DNA of 64,000 nt, taken from Halothiobacillaceae bacterium. Its GTDB lineage: Bacteria > Pseudomonadota > Gammaproteobacteria > Halothiobacillales > Halothiobacillaceae. Shown here one piece after another: positions 2,841 through 63,520 of this stretch (position 1 is the stretch's first letter; the number at the start of each line of letters is the position of its first letter). The DNA lies in contig JAQVHL010000001.1 of the NCBI GenBank assembly GCA_028696185.1, positions 62,001 through 126,000 on the forward strand. The letters are read 5' to 3'. Both the position numbers and the translations under genes were made by a program. The notes below the pieces were generated by a model that did not search any database, was not told the origin of the DNA, and saw only the letters and a program-made list of their open reading frames with translations.

Positions 2841-2954
2841 AAAGCCCAGCGAGCTTCGGGCTTACTACACGGGAGCGCCGCCATGCGGCGTCCTGGTTGC
2901 CGTGCCGACTCTCCAAGGAGGGCGGCGCGACTTAAACAGTGATGGGAATTGGCA
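2834..2954 (+). other. pilJ-chpA gap with two small hairpins
   Basis: The pilJ stop codon lies inside a 5-bp hairpin (GGGCT, loop AAAA, AGCCC). A second hairpin, CGCCGC-CAT-GCGGCG, lies at 2876-2890. Neither is followed by a run of T, so they are not convincing terminators. They may protect or process the message between the receptor and kinase genes. Confidence 0.4.
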
Positions 2955-5900
2955 ATGCGCGCAGCCTACACCATGGATGTCATCGCCCTGTCCTGGGTGC
3001 GGGGCGGCTTGGACGAGGAGCTGTTGCTGCTTCGGCAGGCTCTTGAGGATTATTCGAGCGATGCCGGGCACATCGAGCGTCTGAGCGAGGCGCGTGCCGC
3101 CGCTCACCGTATCTATGGTGTGCTAGGCGTACTGCATGCCCAGCCCGCTCGTCTGCTTTTGCGCGAGCTGGAAGTTTTCTTCACCTCCTCACGTGCTGAG
3201 CGTGCCGATGAAAGCGCGCTCGGACCCTACATCCAGGCGATACTTCAACTTGAAGTTCTGCTGGATCGTCTACAGACGGGACAGCCTGTCCCGCTCGCCG
3301 CGCTTACTGACCTTGTGAACGACATGCGAGCCGTGCGCGAGCTTCCGGTCCTATCCCTGCGTGAATTGACGCTGGATATGGCCCTGCTCGAACGGCTCGA
3401 CGATACACCGGTCTTGCTCAATGCGGATCGTGAAGCCGAAGTGGCCACGGCGCGACGCGCGTTCTTTGAAAAAGCCCTGCTGGGCTGGTTTCAGGGCCGA
3501 TCTGGCGCGCTGGATGAGCTTTCTGCTGTTTTTCAGGAGCTGGAAGCGGCGGCCCAGCCGCCGGAACTGCGCCTTTTCTGGGGTTTGGGGATTCGGCTCG
3601 TTGCGGCTCTTGGCGCAGGGCACATGGTGCCCTCTGCACCTGTCAAAGCGCTGTTCGGGCGTGTGAATCGCCTCATCAAGCTGCTCTCAAACGAAGGTCT
3701 TGCGCGTCTTGATATTTCCGAAGTGCGCGATCTTTCGCGCATGATCGTTATGCAGATGCTCGAAGGGGTTCAGTTTGAGAATCTCCCGGATATCCTCCGC
3801 CCAATCCATGAGTCCCTGGCACACGTGCCAGTTGATGAAGATGAAGAAGCCTTCATTGGTCTGGATCGTGGTGCGCGCCGACAGGTCGCATCCGTGTTGC
3901 GCGAGGAAATCGCTCATCTGCAGGACGTGCTCGACATCTTCGTTCGTGGTAAACGCACGGATCTGGCCCCGCTGATTTCTGTTGCGCCCCGATTGCGCCA
4001 GATTGGCGAAATTTTCGCCATGCTCGAATTGATGCGTCAAGGCGAAGTGCTGATCCAGACCAGTAATACGCTTGACGCTATCGGACGAGGTGAGCGACCG
4101 CTGGAAGAGCGGGATTTGATGGTGATGGCCGGCGCCCTGATGCGGGCCGATGTCGGGGTCGATCAGTATGAGCTGATGGGCGGCGCGGGTAATGGCGAGG
4201 AGCAGGTCCTGCTCAGTGATGCCTCGGTTATCAAGGCAGTTGAAGCCATTGCCAGCAACAGTCTCGACGATATTTTACTGGCCAAGGAAATTCTCCAGGA
4301 TGGCATGCTCAATGCCGAGAAACAGGCTCGGCTTCCTGAGGCGCGTGAGCTTGTCTTGCGCGCTCAACGTGTGTTTGGTGTCATCGGTCTGGAAACAGTG
4401 CGCCCCTTGCTTAGCGGCATCGTGCAGTTTGTCGATGACTACCTGATCGAGCAGCGCCGGGTTCCCGGAGAGATGGCTCTGAATGCCTTGGCCGATCTAT
4501 TCGGTAGTGTTGAATACTATCTTGAAAACCTTCGTGATTACCGTCAGGAACTGAGCGGCTTCCTTACGGTTGGCTTCCGTTCATTGGCTCAGCTGGGATA
4601 CACGTCCGACCGCGAAGGTCGAAGTGAGACGGTCCGCGCTGGCGAAGCTGCTGCTGCCGCCGAAGCTGCTGCCGCCGAAGCTGCTGCCGCCACAGAAGCC
4701 GGTGCAACTGAGGCTGAAATCGAAACCGTTGAAGCGGTCGATACGTTTAGTGTCTCGACTGAAGAGCCGCATCCACCCCTCGAACTTGCCACGGTATCGA
4801 GCGAAGCTGTTCTGCCTTTCGAGGAGCTGCTACAGCAGGCACTCGAAACTCCGGCACTGGAAATCGAGCCGAATCAGGCAGTGGTATCCCCGCACGAAAT
4901 AGAGCCGTTGCCGCTTGAGCGTGCTGAAGGCGAAATGCTTGGGGTGCTTGGTCCTGAGGCGGAGGAAGTGAGCTCTGAGTTTGCCCTTTTGCTTGCGGAG
5001 GCGATAAAGGCTCCCGAAGAGGAGGTATTGCCCGCCCCGCTTGCGTCCAGTGGAATATCCGAACCCGCCAGCGTGCCTGGTGTCGCGGCTCCAGTGCCAG
5101 AGTCCATGCGGGAGTCTGCCCTCGAAAGTGCGCTTGTTGCCGAGTCGATTGGGGAGGAACTTTCCACCGATGATGCGCTGGGTCTTGCGCAGCTGGTGGA
5201 AGGCGAGCCCGATGAAGAAATCCTGGATATCTTCATCGAAGAGGCAAGCGAAGAGCAGGAAAACATCCGCGACCGGCTCACCTTGTGGAAAGCCCGCCCC
5301 AGCGATATGGAAACCTTGGCGGCATTGCGTCGCTCCTTCCATACACTCAAAGGCAGTGGACGTATTGTCGGTATCGAAGCTATCGGTTCTCTGGCCTGGG
5401 CCTATGAAAATCTGCTTAACAATATCCTCGATGGACGTATCCGCCATTCGCGGGAAATCTTCGAGGCTGTTGAAGCCACGGCAGAATACCTACCGACCTT
5501 GATAGGTGCGCTACGTGGTGATGCGCCGGCTTCACGTACTCAGGTCCAAGCCCTGCAGTCCCGTGCTGAGCGTCTGCTGAACACCGGTGCTGAAGAGCTT
5601 GATCTTTTGGTGCTGCGCGATCCTGTCCTGCGTGAAATTTTCACGGTGGAGTCCAGTGGCTATCTCGATACGCTGGAGGACACCTTCTCTAAGGCACGTG
5701 CCAGTGGTCACACACTGGTTGCAGACGAGCAACTCATACGTTTGACCCATACCCTGTTAGGTAGTGCGCGAACAGCAGACGTTCGGGAAATGGCGAAACT
5801 CGCCGACCGGATGGAGCGCTATATCCGGGAGTGTGCCGATCACAACCAGCGTATTGGTTCGCATGGGCTCGATGTGTTGCTTGAAGCGACAGCGGGTGCG

Positions 5901-8900
5901 CGTTCCATGCTGGGCTGGCTTGCCGATCCGGCGCAGGGCAAGCCGTCTTTTGAGTCTGTCGAGCACCGTCTGGATACCTTGCTGGCAGAGCTTTCAGGTC
6001 AGATGGCCAGGGAGCAGGAAGCGCGAGCTGAAGCGCATCGGGAAGATACGGCGGCGCCGAAAGGGTTGTGGACAGCGACCGTTGCCGATATCGATGCGCA
6101 TCCAGGCGCACTCAGTGAATCCGATATCCAAGCCATGCTCGCCCGTGGCACTCTCCCTGAAGAGCCTGCTGTAACGATTGAAACAGCTACGTTTGACATT
6201 GAAAAGGCAGGGCAGGGCAAGGAGATACTGGAGTTGCCTTCCGGGTTGGCTCTGGAAGCGCAGGAGTCCGAATCGACAAGTGCTGGTTTGGATGAGCTTC
6301 TCAGCTGGGATTTCTCAAGTGGCAGCGAATCCGATCATGAACCGTTGACGGAGGAAGAGCGCGCGCTGTTCGAAATGGAACTGCTCTCTGAGGAAGAGGC
6401 GGCGCCTAAACCCCAGGCGGTTCCTCAATTTGTTATCGAAGACTTCGCACTTAGCGGCGTCGAACTGGGTGGGGTTGAGCCTGAGGAGCTGGTACTCCCC
6501 GAAGAACTGGCACAGCCTGAAGAACTGGCACAGCCCGAGGAACTGGCACAGCCTGAGGAACTGGCACAGCCTGAGGAACTGGCACAGCCTGAGGAACTGG
6601 CACAGCCCGAGGAACTGGCACAGCCCGAGGAACTGGCACAGCCCGAGGAACTGGCACAGCCCGAGGAACTGGCACAGCCCGAGGAACTGGCACAGCCCGA
6701 GGAACTGGCACAGCCCGAGGAACTGGCACAGTCCGAAGAACTGGCACAGCCCGAAGAACTGGCACAGCCCGGGGAACTGGCACAGCCCGGGGAACTGGCA
6801 CAGCCCGAGGAACTGGCACAGCCCGAGGAACTGGCACAGCCCGAGGAACTGGCACAGCCTGAAGAATTGGCACAGCCTGAAGAACTGGCGCATCCCGAGG
6901 AATCCATTGTCCCGGTTGCCCCCGTAGCCATTCCCGCTCCTATCGCTCCCGCAATGGAGGTTCGTCCGCCGGAAAATCCTGCCGATCAGGATTACGACAT
7001 TCTGCGCATCTTCATCGAGGAAGCGGAGGAAATCGTCGAAGACGCGGACCGCGAACTGTCGGCCTGGCGTGAGCGTCCGACAGACATCGGACATATCCGC
7101 ATCATTCAGCGCCAGCTGCACACCATCAAGGGTGGGGCCCGCATGGCCGGCATGTACAACTTTGCCGACCTGCCCCACGAGGTGGAGACCCTGCTCAACG
7201 AAGTGTTGTCGGGCAAGTTGCCGCCCAACGACGCATTGGTGAGTTTCGTTCAGCGCTGCTTTGACCGGATGCATCAGTTGCTTGAGCAAGTCAATGAGAT
7301 GCAGCCGATTGCCCACCAAACCGATGCGCTGGAGGAGATCTACCGCTTTGCTCACGGTGAGCCCTTGGCGGCCCCGGTCGAAACGAAGGAGCTGAAGGCG
7401 GCTGCAGCGCCGGAAGTGGTCGCTATTGTCGAACAGGCTTCCGTGCCCGTCCTGCCCGAGCTTGTGCCTCCCGAGCCGGTTGTTTCCCCGCCCGTCGAGC
7501 CCCTCCTTGAGGAAGCGCCAGCCGCACTTGAGTTGCCGGTTGAGTCCTTGGTCGAGTCCTTCGAGCCCAGCGAAGCGGAAGCTGAGCCGGTCGAGGCCGC
7601 CGTGGCGGAGGAAAAAACTCCGGAACCTTTGGCTCCTCCGCCTCCGGTCGTTCCCGAACCGGCAGAGGCGACGCCCATTGCGGCCCTTGCCGCTGCCGAG
7701 CCAAGCGTGGCTGCGCAGGAACTTCGCAGGGAGCAGTTGCGCGTCGATGCTCATGTGGTCGATCAGATGGTTGGTTTCGCTGGAGAAGCCTCGATCTATC
7801 AGGCGCGTCTGGAGCGCCAGGTATCCGAGTTCGCTCGTCAGCTGGAAGAACTCAAACATACCGTTGGTCGCTTGCGCACGCAGCTGCGGCGCATGGAAAT
7901 CGAAACCGAAGCTCAGATGCTCTACCGCTTCCAGCAGGAAACGGGGCGCAGTGCGGAAGAGTTTGACCCCCTGGAGTTCGACCGCTTCTCCCAGTTGCAA
8001 GAGCTCAGTCGCGGCGTCATGGAAAGCCTCAGCGACATCAACAGTGTTCAGGAAGCACTGGAAGATTCGGCAGAGGAAGCCGAGATGCTGCTGGTTCAGC
8101 AGGAGCGATTGTCCAACGAGCTGTCCAGTCAGCTGCTATCGCTGCGCATGGTGCGCTTCAACGACATCGTTCCGCGCTTGCGCCGTATCGTGCGTCAGAC
8201 AGCGGGGGATCTGGGCAAACGTGCGGAACTGTCGGTCAGCGGAGGGGAAACCGAGCTGGACCGTGGCGTGCTGATCAATATGCTGCCGCCGTTTGAGCAC
8301 ATGATCCGTAACTCTCTGGCGCATGGTATCGAAAAGTCCGAACAGCGGCGCGAGAAGGGCAAGACCGAAACCGGACGTATCCATCTGGATGTCAGCAGCC
8401 AGGGCGGGAACATCGTTCTGCGTGTATCGGACGACGGTGCCGGTCTCGATGTACCCGCACTCAAGCGCAAGGCGGTCAGTCGAGGGTTTGCCCACAGCGA
8501 AGATGAAATCTCCGACAGTGACGCTTGCCAGCTTATTTTTGAGTCCGGTTTCAGCACGGCCAAGGAAATCAGCCAGGTCGCCGGGCGTGGTGTGGGTATG
8601 GATGTTGTCGCCTCGGCCATCCGTCAGCTCGGTGGGCATGTCGATCTTGATACGCAGGCTGGCAAGGGCACGACCTTCACCATTCTGTTGCCGCTTACTC
8701 AGGCCATAACCAACGGTGTACTGGTCAGCGCAGGCGAGGATCACTACGCCGTACCTTACAAGGGCATAGTCGGCATCATCCGTGTTCCAGCCGTACAACT
8801 GGCAGAGGAATACAGCCGGGATACCCCGGTGGTGACTTACAACGGCGAGACCTATCTGTTGCACTATATGGGGCATCTGCTCTGGGGCGGGCAGAATCGC

Positions 8901-9569
8901 ACTCCGGATCTGTCCAGTGGCATGCGTCCGGTTCTGTTGGTGCAGCTGGGGGAGCGCCGGCATGCGATTCATGTGGATCACCAGTTCGGTACCGTTCAGC
9001 TGTTCATCAAGTCGCTCGGGCCTCAGCTTGGACAGCTGCGCGGTCTGGCTGGCGCAACGATCGCCAGCGATGGGAATGTCGTCCTCGTCCTGGAGCTTGC
9101 CGAGCTTCTGCGTGCCCAGGCTACCCTGCGTCGCCCGGCCGGACGCCCCGAAGCCGTTGTTGAAGCCAAGCGTGCAGGGCGTCCGCTGGTGCTGGTCGTT
9201 GACGACTCCATTACCATCCGCAAGGTCACCACGCGAATCCTGGAGCGCAACAATATGGATGTCATGGCGGCGAAAGATGGTGTGGAGGCGATTGGCTTGC
9301 TGCACGAAATCAATCCGGACCTCATCCTCAGCGACATCGAAATGCCGCGCATGGATGGTTTCGAACTCTTGAGTGCTATCCGCAACGATCCGCGTTTCGC
9401 TACGGTGCCGGTGGTGATGATCACCTCGCGCACGGGGCAGAAGCATCGGCAGAAAGCCGAGGAAATGGGGGTCAGTGGTTACCTGGGCAAACCTTATACC
9501 GAGGCCGACCTGCTCGCGGAAATGGCGCGCCATCTGCAAGGTCGTCTGGGTCAGGCGGTAGGAGAGTAA
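2955..9569 (+). CDS. chpA: ChpA, giant hybrid chemosensory histidine kinase with hexapeptide repeat array
   Basis: This 2204-residue CheA-type kinase would control type IV pilus function. The N-terminal half holds degenerate and intact Hpt domains: HTLKGSGR (His796), a variant HTLLGSAR (His932) and HTIKGGAR (His1389). Long acidic Ala/Pro/Glu linkers separate them; residues 1182-1313 are 22 tandem copies of PEELAQ. A P3-like helical region follows, then an ATP-binding domain with N box HMIRNSLAHGIE (His1782) and boxes DDGAGLD and GRGVGMD, then a CheW-like P5 domain. A C-terminal receiver has acceptor Asp2127 in LILSDIEMPRMDG and the KP motif. ATG 2955 is chosen because GGGA lies 7-8 bases upstream; an in-frame TTG at 2949 is the alternative. 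Confidence 0.93.
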   Translation: MRAAYTMDVIALSWVRGGLDEELLLLRQALEDYSSDAGHIERLSEARAAAHRIYGVLGVLHAQPARLLLRELEVFFTSSRAERADESALGPYIQAILQLEVLLDRLQTGQPVPLAALTDLVNDMRAVRELPVLSLRELTLDMALLERLDDTPVLLNADREAEVATARRAFFEKALLGWFQGRSGALDELSAVFQELEAAAQPPELRLFWGLGIRLVAALGAGHMVPSAPVKALFGRVNRLIKLLSNEGLARLDISEVRDLSRMIVMQMLEGVQFENLPDILRPIHESLAHVPVDEDEEAFIGLDRGARRQVASVLREEIAHLQDVLDIFVRGKRTDLAPLISVAPRLRQIGEIFAMLELMRQGEVLIQTSNTLDAIGRGERPLEERDLMVMAGALMRADVGVDQYELMGGAGNGEEQVLLSDASVIKAVEAIASNSLDDILLAKEILQDGMLNAEKQARLPEARELVLRAQRVFGVIGLETVRPLLSGIVQFVDDYLIEQRRVPGEMALNALADLFGSVEYYLENLRDYRQELSGFLTVGFRSLAQLGYTSDREGRSETVRAGEAAAAAEAAAAEAAAATEAGATEAEIETVEAVDTFSVSTEEPHPPLELATVSSEAVLPFEELLQQALETPALEIEPNQAVVSPHEIEPLPLERAEGEMLGVLGPEAEEVSSEFALLLAEAIKAPEEEVLPAPLASSGISEPASVPGVAAPVPESMRESALESALVAESIGEELSTDDALGLAQLVEGEPDEEILDIFIEEASEEQENIRDRLTLWKARPSDMETLAALRRSFHTLKGSGRIVGIEAIGSLAWAYENLLNNILDGRIRHSREIFEAVEATAEYLPTLIGALRGDAPASRTQVQALQSRAERLLNTGAEELDLLVLRDPVLREIFTVESSGYLDTLEDTFSKARASGHTLVADEQLIRLTHTLLGSARTADVREMAKLADRMERYIRECADHNQRIGSHGLDVLLEATAGARSMLGWLADPAQGKPSFESVEHRLDTLLAELSGQMAREQEARAEAHREDTAAPKGLWTATVADIDAHPGALSESDIQAMLARGTLPEEPAVTIETATFDIEKAGQGKEILELPSGLALEAQESESTSAGLDELLSWDFSSGSESDHEPLTEEERALFEMELLSEEEAAPKPQAVPQFVIEDFALSGVELGGVEPEELVLPEELAQPEELAQPEELAQPEELAQPEELAQPEELAQPEELAQPEELAQPEELAQPEELAQPEELAQPEELAQPEELAQSEELAQPEELAQPGELAQPGELAQPEELAQPEELAQPEELAQPEELAQPEELAHPEESIVPVAPVAIPAPIAPAMEVRPPENPADQDYDILRIFIEEAEEIVEDADRELSAWRERPTDIGHIRIIQRQLHTIKGGARMAGMYNFADLPHEVETLLNEVLSGKLPPNDALVSFVQRCFDRMHQLLEQVNEMQPIAHQTDALEEIYRFAHGEPLAAPVETKELKAAAAPEVVAIVEQASVPVLPELVPPEPVVSPPVEPLLEEAPAALELPVESLVESFEPSEAEAEPVEAAVAEEKTPEPLAPPPPVVPEPAEATPIAALAAAEPSVAAQELRREQLRVDAHVVDQMVGFAGEASIYQARLERQVSEFARQLEELKHTVGRLRTQLRRMEIETEAQMLYRFQQETGRSAEEFDPLEFDRFSQLQELSRGVMESLSDINSVQEALEDSAEEAEMLLVQQERLSNELSSQLLSLRMVRFNDIVPRLRRIVRQTAGDLGKRAELSVSGGETELDRGVLINMLPPFEHMIRNSLAHGIEKSEQRREKGKTETGRIHLDVSSQGGNIVLRVSDDGAGLDVPALKRKAVSRGFAHSEDEISDSDACQLIFESGFSTAKEISQVAGRGVGMDVVASAIRQLGGHVDLDTQAGKGTTFTILLPLTQAITNGVLVSAGEDHYAVPYKGIVGIIRVPAVQLAEEYSRDTPVVTYNGETYLLHYMGHLLWGGQNRTPDLSSGMRPVLLVQLGERRHAIHVDHQFGTVQLFIKSLGPQLGQLRGLAGATIASDGNVVLVLELAELLRAQATLRRPAGRPEAVVEAKRAGRPLVLVVDDSITIRKVTTRILERNNMDVMAAKDGVEAIGLLHEINPDLILSDIEMPRMDGFELLSAIRNDPRFATVPVVMITSRTGQKHRQKAEEMGVSGYLGKPYTEADLLAEMARHLQGRLGQAVGE
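6498..6893 (+). repeat. 18-bp tandem repeat array in chpA, 22 units
   Basis: This is exactly 396 bp, made of 22 in-frame copies of CCCGAGGAACTGGCACAG, each encoding Pro-Glu-Glu-Leu-Ala-Gln. Variants are few: CCT for CCC, GAA for GAG, one Ser for Pro, two Gly for Glu, and a last unit ending in His. Near-identity at the nucleotide level, including synonymous sites, points to recent expansion by slippage or unequal exchange. Because the unit is a multiple of three, copy-number change would lengthen or shorten a linker between Hpt domains without shifting the frame. Confidence 0.97.
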
Positions 9570-9575
9570 AAAGGC

Positions 9576-10022
9576 ATGGACAACGCCGAAGAGCAACTCT
9601 ATGCGGTTCGTCTGCCCTTGCAGGGGCTGACGCTCGTGGTTCCCTACTCGGTCATGGCCGAGATCATCAACTGGGAGGTTCCGGACAGTACTACCTTGCG
9701 TCAGTGGCGACTTGCTGAAATCGACTGGCGCGGCTGGAAGGTACCTCTGGTCAGTCTTGAACTGGCCTGCGGTCAGGTCTTCATGCCCCCGGCCGGTCGT
9801 GTGCGCGTCGCCATCCTGTACACCCTGGGAGGGGATCGCCAGCGTCCCTACATGGCTGTATTGCTCAATGGCGTGCCGCGCACGGAGCGTGTGAGTCGTT
9901 CGGACTTGGTGGGCGCAGGTGGTGTGGGCTGTCCGCTGATCGCCTTCATGGCTCGCCTGCGCGATCAGGATGTAGGACTGCTGGATATTGAAGAGCTGGA
10001 GCGGCGTATCGCGGCGGCGTGA
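9576..10022 (+). CDS. chpC: ChpC-like CheW-domain protein
   Basis: This 148-residue protein starts 6 bases after the chpA stop. It is a single CheW-type domain: LTLVVPYSVMAEIINW near the N-terminus and WRGWKVPLVSLELACG near residue 55. In Pseudomonas the pil-chp cluster ends with chpB (methylesterase) and chpC (a second CheW). Here no chpB lies between, so adaptation of PilJ may depend on a methylesterase elsewhere, or not occur. The assignment to ChpC is by position and domain; sequence alone says only CheW-like. Confidence 0.8.
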   Translation: MDNAEEQLYAVRLPLQGLTLVVPYSVMAEIINWEVPDSTTLRQWRLAEIDWRGWKVPLVSLELACGQVFMPPAGRVRVAILYTLGGDRQRPYMAVLLNGVPRTERVSRSDLVGAGGVGCPLIAFMARLRDQDVGLLDIEELERRIAAA

Positions 10023-12874: not shown

Positions 12875-13791
12875 GACTTGCGCTCGCTGCTGCCGAAGGT
12901 GGATTTGGCGATTTCGGCGATGCCGGCCAGGCTGCCCAGGATCTGGGAGGTTTCCACCGGCAGCATGATGACCTTCTGGTTCGGCGCGGTGGCCACGGCC
13001 TGGAAGGCTTCGATGTACTTCTGTGCGACGAAGTAATTGACCGCCTGCATGTCCCCTTTGGCAATGGCTTCGCTGACCATGTCGGTGGCGCGGGCTTCAG
13101 CCTGTGCCAAACGCTCGCGGGCCTCGGCTTCGCGGTAAGCGGCTTCTTTTTCGCCTTCGGCCTTGAGGATCTGGGACTGCTTTTCCCCTTCGGCCTTGAG
13201 GATCTGCGCCTGGCGCTGGCCTTCGGCTTCGAGAATCGCGGCGCGTTTCTCGCGTTCGGCTTTCATCTGCCGGGCCATGGCGTCTACCAGATCCTTGGGC
13301 GGGGTGATGTCCTTTATCTCGATGCGGGTGATCTTGGTGCCCCAGGGGCCGGTCGCTTCGTCGACCACGGACAGCAGGCGGCCGTTGATTTCGTCGCGCC
13401 GCGACAGCAGTTCGTCGAGATCCATCGAGCCCATGACGGTACGGATATTGGTGGTCACCAGGTTGAGGATGGCGTATTCGAGGTTATGGACTTCATAGGC
13501 GGCACGCGCGGAATCCAGCACCTGGAAAAAGACCACACCATCGACCTGCACCATGGCATTGTCGCGGGTGATGATTTCCTGCGAAGGCACGTCCAGCACC
13601 TGTTCCATGACGTTCACCTTGTGACCGACACGGTCGATGATCGGAATGATAAGGTGCAAGCCGGGTGAGAGGGAGCGGGTGTAGCGCCCAAAACGCTCGA
13701 CGGTGTATTCAAGCCCCTGCGGGACGGTCTTGACCCCCGTCAGGACATACAGCACGGCAAGGATCAGGATCGAGAGAGCGAAATAGGTCAT
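12871..13791 (-). CDS. SPFH/band 7 (stomatin, QmcA-like) protein
   Basis: The 306-residue protein has one N-terminal membrane helix (residues about 3-19). A band 7 domain follows: VPQGLEYTVERFGRYTRSL, then ITRDNAMVQVDGVVFFQV. A long charged coiled coil then repeats ILKAEGEKQ/ILEAEGQRQ around residues 185-235. Paraslipins of this type oligomerise at the inner membrane. The adjacent nfeD gene is the classic partner. No peptidase domain is seen. It is the first gene of the operon; an 8-bp inverted repeat (GCGGAAGG / CCTTCCGC, 13822-13846) lies just upstream. Confidence 0.9.
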   Translation of the reverse strand: MTYFALSILILAVLYVLTGVKTVPQGLEYTVERFGRYTRSLSPGLHLIIPIIDRVGHKVNVMEQVLDVPSQEIITRDNAMVQVDGVVFFQVLDSARAAYEVHNLEYAILNLVTTNIRTVMGSMDLDELLSRRDEINGRLLSVVDEATGPWGTKITRIEIKDITPPKDLVDAMARQMKAEREKRAAILEAEGQRQAQILKAEGEKQSQILKAEGEKEAAYREAEARERLAQAEARATDMVSEAIAKGDMQAVNYFVAQKYIEAFQAVATAPNQKVIMLPVETSQILGSLAGIAEIAKSTFGSSERKS

Positions 13792-60611: not shown

Positions 60612-63520
60612 CGTCGCCCCGCTATGTCGTTGGCATCGGAGCCTCTGCCGGAGGGCTGGAAGCCATCGAGTCCTTTTTCCGGCAGATGCCCACCGACAGT
60701 GGCGCTGCCTTCGTCGTCATTCAGCATCTCTCTCCCGACTACAAGAGTCTGATGGTCGAGCTGCTGACCAAACACACCACCATGCCGGTTCTGCGCTCAG
60801 AAGATGGGATGACGGTACAGGCCGATCATGTGTATCTGATCCCACCGGGCAAGAACCTGCGTCTGTTCCATGGCAAATTGCTGCTGTCGGATCAGGAGGG
60901 GGGGCGGGGCATCAACCTGCCCATCGATATTTTTCTGCGCGCGCTGGCCGAGGATCAGGGCGAGAAGAGCATTGCCATCATCCTCTCCGGCACCGGCTCC
61001 GATGGCACGCGCGGTATCCGCGCGGTGAAGGAGCAAGGGGGCATGATCATGGTGCAGTCCGAGGAAACGGCGCGTTTCGATGGCATGCCCAAGAGCGCGA
61101 TCAATACCGGGCTGGCGGATTTCGTGCTCGGTCCCGAAGACATGCCCGTGCAGCTGCTGTCCTATATGAAGCATCCAACGGTGACCAAGGCGGAGCGTTC
61201 CACGGCACTGGCTTCCGACGAGGACGGCCTGACGCGCATTTTCGCCTTGCTGCGTGAGCGTTCGAAACTTGATTTCACCTTCTACAAACCCAGTACTGTG
61301 ATCCGCCGCATAGAGCGGCGCATGACGGTCAATCAGGTGCAGGAGTTGCGTGATTATGTCCGTTTTCTGGAGCGTTTTCCGGGAGAAGTGGGGCATCTTT
61401 ACCGCGAGCTGTTGATCGGGGTGACGCGTTTCTTCCGCGACAAGCCCGCCTGGGATTGGCTGGATGAGCAGGTCTTGCCTGACGTTTTCGAGCGCGCCAA
61501 CGGCCGGGAAGTGCGCATGTGGGTGGCAGGGTGCTCCACCGGAGAGGAGGCTTACACGCTGGCCATGGTCTGCCGCGAGGTGATGGAGCGTCTGGGGCGG
61601 GTCGTCGATGTGAAGATTTTTGCTACCGATGTGGATCGGGACGCCGTGCAACGTGCCGGCGCCGGCGTCTATCCGGAAAGCATCGTCGCCGATCTTTCCC
61701 CCGCGTTGCTGGGCAAGTATTTTCAGCGCCGTGACGAGAATTTCCATGTGGCACGTGGCCTGCGCGAAATGGTGGTATTCGCGCCGCACAATCTGCTCAA
61801 GGATCCGCCGTTCACCAATATCGATTTCATCTCCTGCCGAAACCTGCTGATCTATCTGCAGCCGGTGCTGCAGAAGAAAACGCTCGACCTGTTCAGTTTT
61901 TCCCTGCGTCAGGAGGGCGTGTTGCTGTTGGGCAGCAGCGAAACGATAGGTGATTCAGCGGATGTCTATGAACCCCTGCATCCGAAGTGGCGGATCTATC
62001 GGGCCAAAGCGAAACGTCGCCTGAGCGATGCCCATGAAATAAACCATTTTTCCGGGACGCTGGCTTCGTCGGAGCTGGGGCGCCCTCTTGCGCGAGGCGC
62101 ACTCCGTCCGGTTCAGGAGGATCGCTTGCTGGGGCGTTTGCTCGAAGGGCTGAGCGGTCGACTTCTACCCCTGACCCTGGTGGTTAACGAGCGCATGGAG
62201 TTGCTGCATGTGGAAGGCGATGCCGAGGGTGTGCTGCGCCTGCCTTCCGGGCGGATGCGCAACGATGTTACCCGGCTGGTCAGTCACGATCTGGCCATTC
62301 CGCTCGCCACGGGCTTGCAGAAGGTCTTCAAGACCGGGGAGGGTCTGGTCTATACCAATGTTCATCTCAAGGGGCCGGCGGGCGTCCGGACCGTCGACCT
62401 GCGCCTTATGGCCTTGCCCGGTCGCAAGGGGGATGAGGCTCTGGCCGCCGTGCTGGTGCAATCCGTCGGGGCGCGTGAGGCCGATGGTGCGCAGGAGGAG
62501 CGTTTCGATCTGGATCGCGTCGCCGAGCAGCGTATCCGTGATCTGGAAGGTGAGCTGCAGTTCACACGGGAAAACCTGCAGGCCACGGTGGAAGAGCTGG
62601 AGACAGCCAACGAAGAGCTGCAGGCGGCGAATGAGGAGCTTCTGGCCAGCAACGAGGAGTTGCAATCCACCAACGAAGAGCTGCAATCGGTCAACGAGGA
62701 GCTCTACACGGTGAATGCGGAGTTCCAGACCAAGATCGCCGAGTTGTCCCAGCTTAACAACGATCTGGACAACCTGATCTCCGGCAGTGAAATCGCGACG
62801 CTGTTCCTGGATGCGCAGTTGCGTGTGAGGCGCTACACCCCTGCCCTGACGCGTCTGTGCCGCATTATCGACAGCGATATCGGGCGGCCGATTACCGATC
62901 TGAGCCATCAGATGCTGGATGTCGATCTCAGTGCCCTGGCCCAGCAGGTGCAGATGGCGCGTGAAGCGCTGGACCTGGAAGTGCGTACGCGCGATGGGCG
63001 ATGGTATCTGCTCAATGCCCATCCCTACTGTATCGGTCGTCAGCCGACCGGCTCGGTGGTTATGAATCTGGTGGAGGTCACCGAGCTGAAAAACGCCCAG
63101 GAGACGCTGGCGCGCAGTCAGGCCCGCCACGCCCAGGCCCTGCGTGCGGTGGGAATCGCGCTCTGGGATTGGGATATCGTCGCGGGTACGCTCACCTGGT
63201 CGGAATCGATAGAGGCACTGACCTGCGTGAGTGTCGAGCGTCTGGGGAACCCTTTCGAGAGCTTTGGGGAGATGGCCTGTCCGGACGACCGAGCCCGTTT
63301 GCGTCAGGCACTGATCGACTGTGTCGAACACGGCCAGCGTCTTGAGATCGACTTCGGTCTTCTGCGTACCGAAGGTCTTGTTTCGCCGGTCAGGGCGGTG
63401 GGCGTGGTGCGGCGTGACGAGAGCGGGCGCGCCGTGCGTCTGCTAGGCATGCTTCATCTGCTAGAGGTGCAGGCCGATGCTGAAACCTCCCTTCCTTGCC
63501 TGCAAGGTACGGATCAATGA
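60608..63520 (+). CDS. CheB-CheR-PAS fusion protein
   Basis: The 970-residue protein starts directly with a CheB methylesterase domain and has no receiver. Catalytic Ser is in [12 protein letters not shown], His in VIQHLSPDY, and Asp in [15 protein letters not shown] CheR methyltransferase follows (residues about 215-475) with [14 protein letters not shown], the SAM site [14 protein letters not shown]-like [16 protein letters not shown], and [17 protein letters not shown] long coiled coil (about 640-720) is built on NEELQ-type repeats, and two PAS-like domains end the protein. ATG 60608 overlaps the previous stop (ATGA). Which receptor or kinase it modifies is unknown. Confidence 0.93.

Follow-up and report, generated by a model that had tools for sequence, protein, structure and literature searches.

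The chpA gene of a Halothiobacillaceae bacterium (assembly GCA_028696185.1) carries a tandem array of 22 units of 18 bp, each encoding PEELAQ or a close variant. We consider it likely that this array is a coding minisatellite, that it adds length to an acidic and probably disordered spacer separating two Hpt domains in the type IV pilus kinase ChpA, and that the length and sequence of this spacer are loosely constrained. The array is a striking case of an ordinary process and does not represent a new system, because in relatives these spacers have, time and again, acquired repeats of other kinds. Positions below refer to the window, meaning the whole 64,000-nucleotide stretch of contig JAQVHL010000001.1 that was analysed, and the features placed between 202 and 10022 lie on the plus strand.

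The chpA gene and its genomic neighbourhood

The array lies in a gene of 2206 codons (2949–9569), for which TTG at 2949, ATG at 2955 or a later ATG are start candidates. The encoded protein comprises an N-terminal Hpt-like region, three more Hpt domains, a CheA core (dimerisation, HATPase_c and CheW) and a receiver domain. Pfam matches cover Hpt in four stretches, HATPase_c, CheW and a C-terminal Response_reg, and the H-kinase_dim score falls slightly under its cut-off. An Hpt domain with the motif HTLKG (5217–5486, 2.4e-15) lies two domains upstream of the Hpt domain that flanks the array. The linker holding the array is bordered upstream by an HTLLGSA Hpt domain (5628–5855, 1.2e-07) and, directly after the array, by an HTIKGGA Hpt domain (6996–7289, 4.6e-15), as located by local searches.

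The gene order is pilG-pilH-pilI-pilJ-chpA-chpC: ahead of chpA lie genes for two receivers, a CheW protein and an MCP of the PilJ type, and after it comes a second CheW gene. The pilI-like CheW gene occupies 202–747 (Pfam CheW, 2.3e-18), the pilJ-like chemoreceptor gene 810–2840 (MCPsignal and PilJ), and the chpC-like CheW gene 9576–10022 (1.4e-06). Elsewhere in the genome, PilT and PilB families score above their cut-offs, indicating that pilus motors are present. On the grounds of its domains, of the flanking receiver, CheW and PilJ genes, and of PilT and PilB, the locus is a Pil-Chp cluster and the kinase gene is chpA/pilL. Separately, three PilT-family ATPase genes, all above the family cut-off, stand in tandem at G000:C34:7375-10711 (L189, L190 and L191).

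Structure of the array

The 22 units run without interruption from 6498 to 6893, all in the chpA frame, and correspond to ChpA residues 1184–1315; the count and frame reported in the earlier note are thus exact. TRF delimits the array at 6478–6902, with 23.6 copies, 93% matches and a score of 689. Its edges are decayed, with a PEELVL unit on the 5' side (6480–6497) and a half-unit, PEESIV, on the 3' side (6894–6911). The consensus unit CCCGAGGAACTGGCACAG accounts for 11 of the 22 units, and the seven other unit types (eight in total) differ from it by one to four bases, the final two units being the most diverged. The description of the array as 22 copies of PEELAQ holds for the number of units, although the exact peptide occurs in 18 only, the other four reading PGELAQ (two adjoining units), SEELAQ (one) and PEELAH (one). 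Similarly, the statement that synonymous positions are almost invariant applies to most codons, whose third bases show zero or one change across the units, but not to the third bases of the proline and the first glutamate codons, which vary in 6 of 22 units each.

All six reading frames are open through the array, as had been noted. Such openness arises by chance in 36% of random units of the same base composition, and in 43% of in-frame 18-mers of chpA if these are tandemly repeated, so that the open antisense frames are unremarkable for a unit of this kind. The largest antisense ORF, of 560 residues, has no Pfam match. Meaningful antisense genes were accordingly discarded as an explanation, and the earlier warning that these frames mislead was well placed.

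An acidic spacer between Hpt domains

The linker as a whole (6069–6980) spans about 304 residues, compared with 54–114 in relatives. It joins the fourth and fifth Hpt-like domains, a numbering that is our own reading and that includes one degenerate N-terminal Hpt-like region without a Pfam match. Aspartate and glutamate make up 32% of the array, lysine and arginine are absent (0%), and the surrounding stretch is likewise acidic and nearly free of lysine and arginine; with Hpt-like domains on both sides, the earlier description of an acidic linker between Hpt domains is borne out. A single-sequence AlphaFold2 model, of low confidence throughout (pLDDT of about 50), leaves the array without secondary structure and renders the next Hpt domain helical. 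Judging by composition and by this low-confidence model, the array region is probably disordered, and the length of this acidic spacer is likely to be under loose constraint. A second, smaller in-frame array of the EAAAA type (15-bp unit, 2.8 perfect copies; 4643–4699) is found in another ChpA linker, before the next Hpt domain.

Local and recent duplication

Within the 372 kb sampled for an in-genome ranking, equal to 13% of the genome, three arrays reach a TRF score of at least 80. Two of them are in chpA, and the top score of 689 is followed by 98, the value that the runner-up within the window also has. The PEELAQ-type unit has no copy elsewhere in the genome and none in 95 related genomes. 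The possibility that it is common to relatives or to viral contigs was rejected, with zero matches in either.

Identical units adjoin each other 11 times, as against 5.5 in shuffled order (p=0.0003). This clustering implies that duplication works locally and that neighbouring copies have been re-duplicated, and it lends support to the earlier proposal of a recent expansion. The array thus has the features of a coding minisatellite: it is tandem, its units are multiples of three, it is in frame and its duplication is recent. A hairpin as the driver of expansion finds no support. As a single strand, the DNA folds worse than 100 of 100 shuffles (z=+2.5), and the RNA of the array folds no better than shuffles. 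Because the unit measures 18 bp and contains no stop codon, a change in copy number alters the length of the spacer only, in agreement with the frame-neutral variation that the earlier note had proposed.

Two further repeats occur in the window. A 33-bp repeat of 2.3 copies (13151–13227, minus strand) encodes QILKAEGE repeats in an SPFH/stomatin-like gene, and a similar 33-bp repeat exists in the relative G023. A degenerate 21-bp repeat (62591–62703; 5.4 copies, 69% matches) is heptad-sized and possibly encodes a coiled coil.

Arrays in the ChpA linkers of relatives

The family sample consists of 27 genomes from four genera (g2, g3 and g4 below are genera of this sample), and in 26 of the genomes the Hpt domain that follows the array is clearly matched. 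The comparison covered one genome per species, and the genus of the source organism is represented by a single genome. At a TRF threshold of at least 80, in-frame arrays are present in the ChpA linkers of 15 of the 26 family genomes that have the gene. Their units differ by lineage and are unrelated to PEELAQ, including ET, EA, EAV, EAA, DTQA, PEQM and others. Genomes of g2 carry 6-bp ET or EA arrays, all five of g4 carry 9-bp EAV or EAA arrays, one g3 genome has a mixed EAV/DAV array, and further units measure 12, 15, 24 and 45 bp. As a refutation of its proposal, the earlier note had named a copy number that is the same throughout the related genomes; across species this condition does not hold, since the PEELAQ unit occurs only here and the arrays and copy numbers of relatives differ. 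In the relative G022, a frameshift and a stop at the 5' edge of a 9-bp array (L097, at about 5303, reversed strand) split ChpA into two ORFs; the frameshift may be genuine or may stem from misassembly at the array.

In the family, linkers hold 19 of the 23 arrays, the other 4 fall outside chpA, and the domains are free of them (binomial p=2e-11, with linkers forming 17.5% of the sequence), where two arrays whose contigs break inside them are entered twice, related genomes are not independent, and the enrichment is relative to domains and outside sequence only, so that ChpA may simply be rich in long linkers. In a class-wide sample of another 40 ChpA genes, 11 contain linker arrays, with 13 arrays in linkers, none in domains and 2 outside (p=2e-9). 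The periods of all linker arrays (32 of 32) are multiples of three. Acidity is also a shared trait: family arrays contain 35% Asp/Glu and 0.6% Lys/Arg, compared with 24% and 5% in the rest of the linkers and 16% and 11% in the domains. Since arrays avoid the domains and every period is divisible by three, the linkers of ChpA recurrently gain repeats through in-frame duplication, and the PEELAQ array is the strongest example seen.

The linker that holds the PEELAQ array can be followed across the family. It contains no array in g2 and g3, whose 20 genomes group with the source genome on a ChpA-core tree that is midpoint-rooted and has a long branch to the source genome. The corresponding linker of g4 bears an array of an unrelated unit. 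Because g2 and g3 lack an array in this linker and the g4 unit is unrelated, the simplest reading is that the arrays of the source genome and of g4 had independent origins.

Interpretation and alternative explanations

Under the loose-spacer explanation, replication slippage or unequal recombination would have produced in-frame duplicates of an ancestral PEEL-type motif. Adjoining copies were then re-duplicated over and over, as the clustering of variants shows. Any change in copy number would then modify spacer length and nothing else. The spacer itself may be a flexible tether with negative charge, holding the Hpt domains at a distance from each other while allowing them access to the kinase core and to the receivers. 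Its exact length and sequence would be loosely constrained, and a spacer of this kind would allow different species to accumulate, independently, the different acidic repeats that are observed in the same linkers.

A more ambitious proposal is that the array functions as a contingency-like locus, in which copy number changes frequently within the population, linker length modifies phosphotransfer from ChpA to PilG and PilH in a quantitative manner and, through it, twitching or surface sensing, and mutability itself is selected. The frame-neutral unit and the near-identical copies fit this idea, as do the recurrent independent ChpA-linker arrays of many lineages and the EAV/EAA array, whose copy number differs between related species (roughly 14, 20 and 23; in another two the array is split by assembly). 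However, protein tandem repeats are associated with disorder in general (PMC7230257), and disordered linkers collect repeats without selection for mutability. Many family members that possess ChpA lack a strong array, and substitutions within the array indicate that it did not form in one recent burst. We therefore regard this proposal as improbable. A broader version seems just as doubtful: throughout Gammaproteobacteria, selection would have made the linkers between the Hpt domains of Chp kinases into recurrent hotspots where length varies in frame, which would provide a heritable, reversible length dial for surface-motility signalling.

Selection could instead act on the peptide, with PEELAQ retained as an ordered rod or as a multivalent binding platform for some partner in the Pil-Chp system. 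The exact hexapeptide is preserved in 18 of the 22 units, and 8 of 10 inferred transitions in the array are synonymous, whereas 7 of the 18 transitions that could occur would be (p=0.01). This lean speaks somewhat against the loose-spacer reading, as it suggests that the peptide is under a degree of constraint, although the test is a weak one built on few events (11 inferred base changes). On the other hand, the unit is found in none of the 95 relatives, the corresponding linkers of orthologues consist of unrelated peptides, a proline recurs every six residues and no secondary structure is predicted, albeit at low confidence. A structured or binding repeat is thus very unlikely.

That the array or its copy number is an assembly error is scarcely credible: the draft comprises 112 contigs, the longest exact repeat inside the array is 123 bp and the contigs of relatives G024 and G025 break within their own arrays, but the array lies inside a 219-kb contig with eight distinguishable unit types, decayed edges and an intact frame, no stray copies occur on other contigs, and related genomes have comparable arrays. 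The exact number of 22 units in this 112-contig draft is nonetheless provisional and needs long-read confirmation, because of the 123-bp exact internal repeat and because the contigs of relatives break inside such arrays.

The presence of different arrays in the ChpA linkers of more than half of the family and of about a quarter of the class-wide sample suggests that evolution leaves the length and sequence of these linkers free, whereas composition stays acidic. ChpA linker arrays consequently offer natural length variants for testing the role of the spacer. If copy number also varies within populations, they would be a simple means by which surface behaviour could vary.

Comparison with known systems

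Multi-Hpt CheA proteins are well described (PMC10782961, PMC12632253), and the latter paper considers the reason for the many phosphotransfer domains of ChpA poorly understood. According to these papers, ChpA of Pseudomonas aeruginosa is a large CheA-like kinase with several Hpt-like domains, a CheA core and a C-terminal receiver, and it is encoded with pilG-, pilH-, pilI-, pilJ- and chpC-like genes; the protein and locus described here share this plan. They differ in that fewer Hpt domains are recognised and that one linker contains the 22-unit PEELAQ array, a tandem repeat in P. aeruginosa ChpA receiving no mention in the available text of either source. More broadly, no description of tandem repeats or VNTRs in ChpA or CheA linkers was found in the open-access literature.

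The array resembles bacterial coding minisatellites, or in-frame VNTRs, of disordered regions in its multiple-of-three unit, near-identical copies, decayed edges and low-complexity acidic setting. Coding minisatellites are more often described from surface proteins, whereas this one sits in a cytoplasmic signalling kinase and is known from one genome. A further parallel is provided by CheA, in which flexible linkers connect Hpt/P1, P2 and the core and so tether phosphotransfer domains to the kinase core. In the ChpA studied here, by contrast, successive Hpt domains are linked to one another, by a tether roughly three times longer than in relatives.
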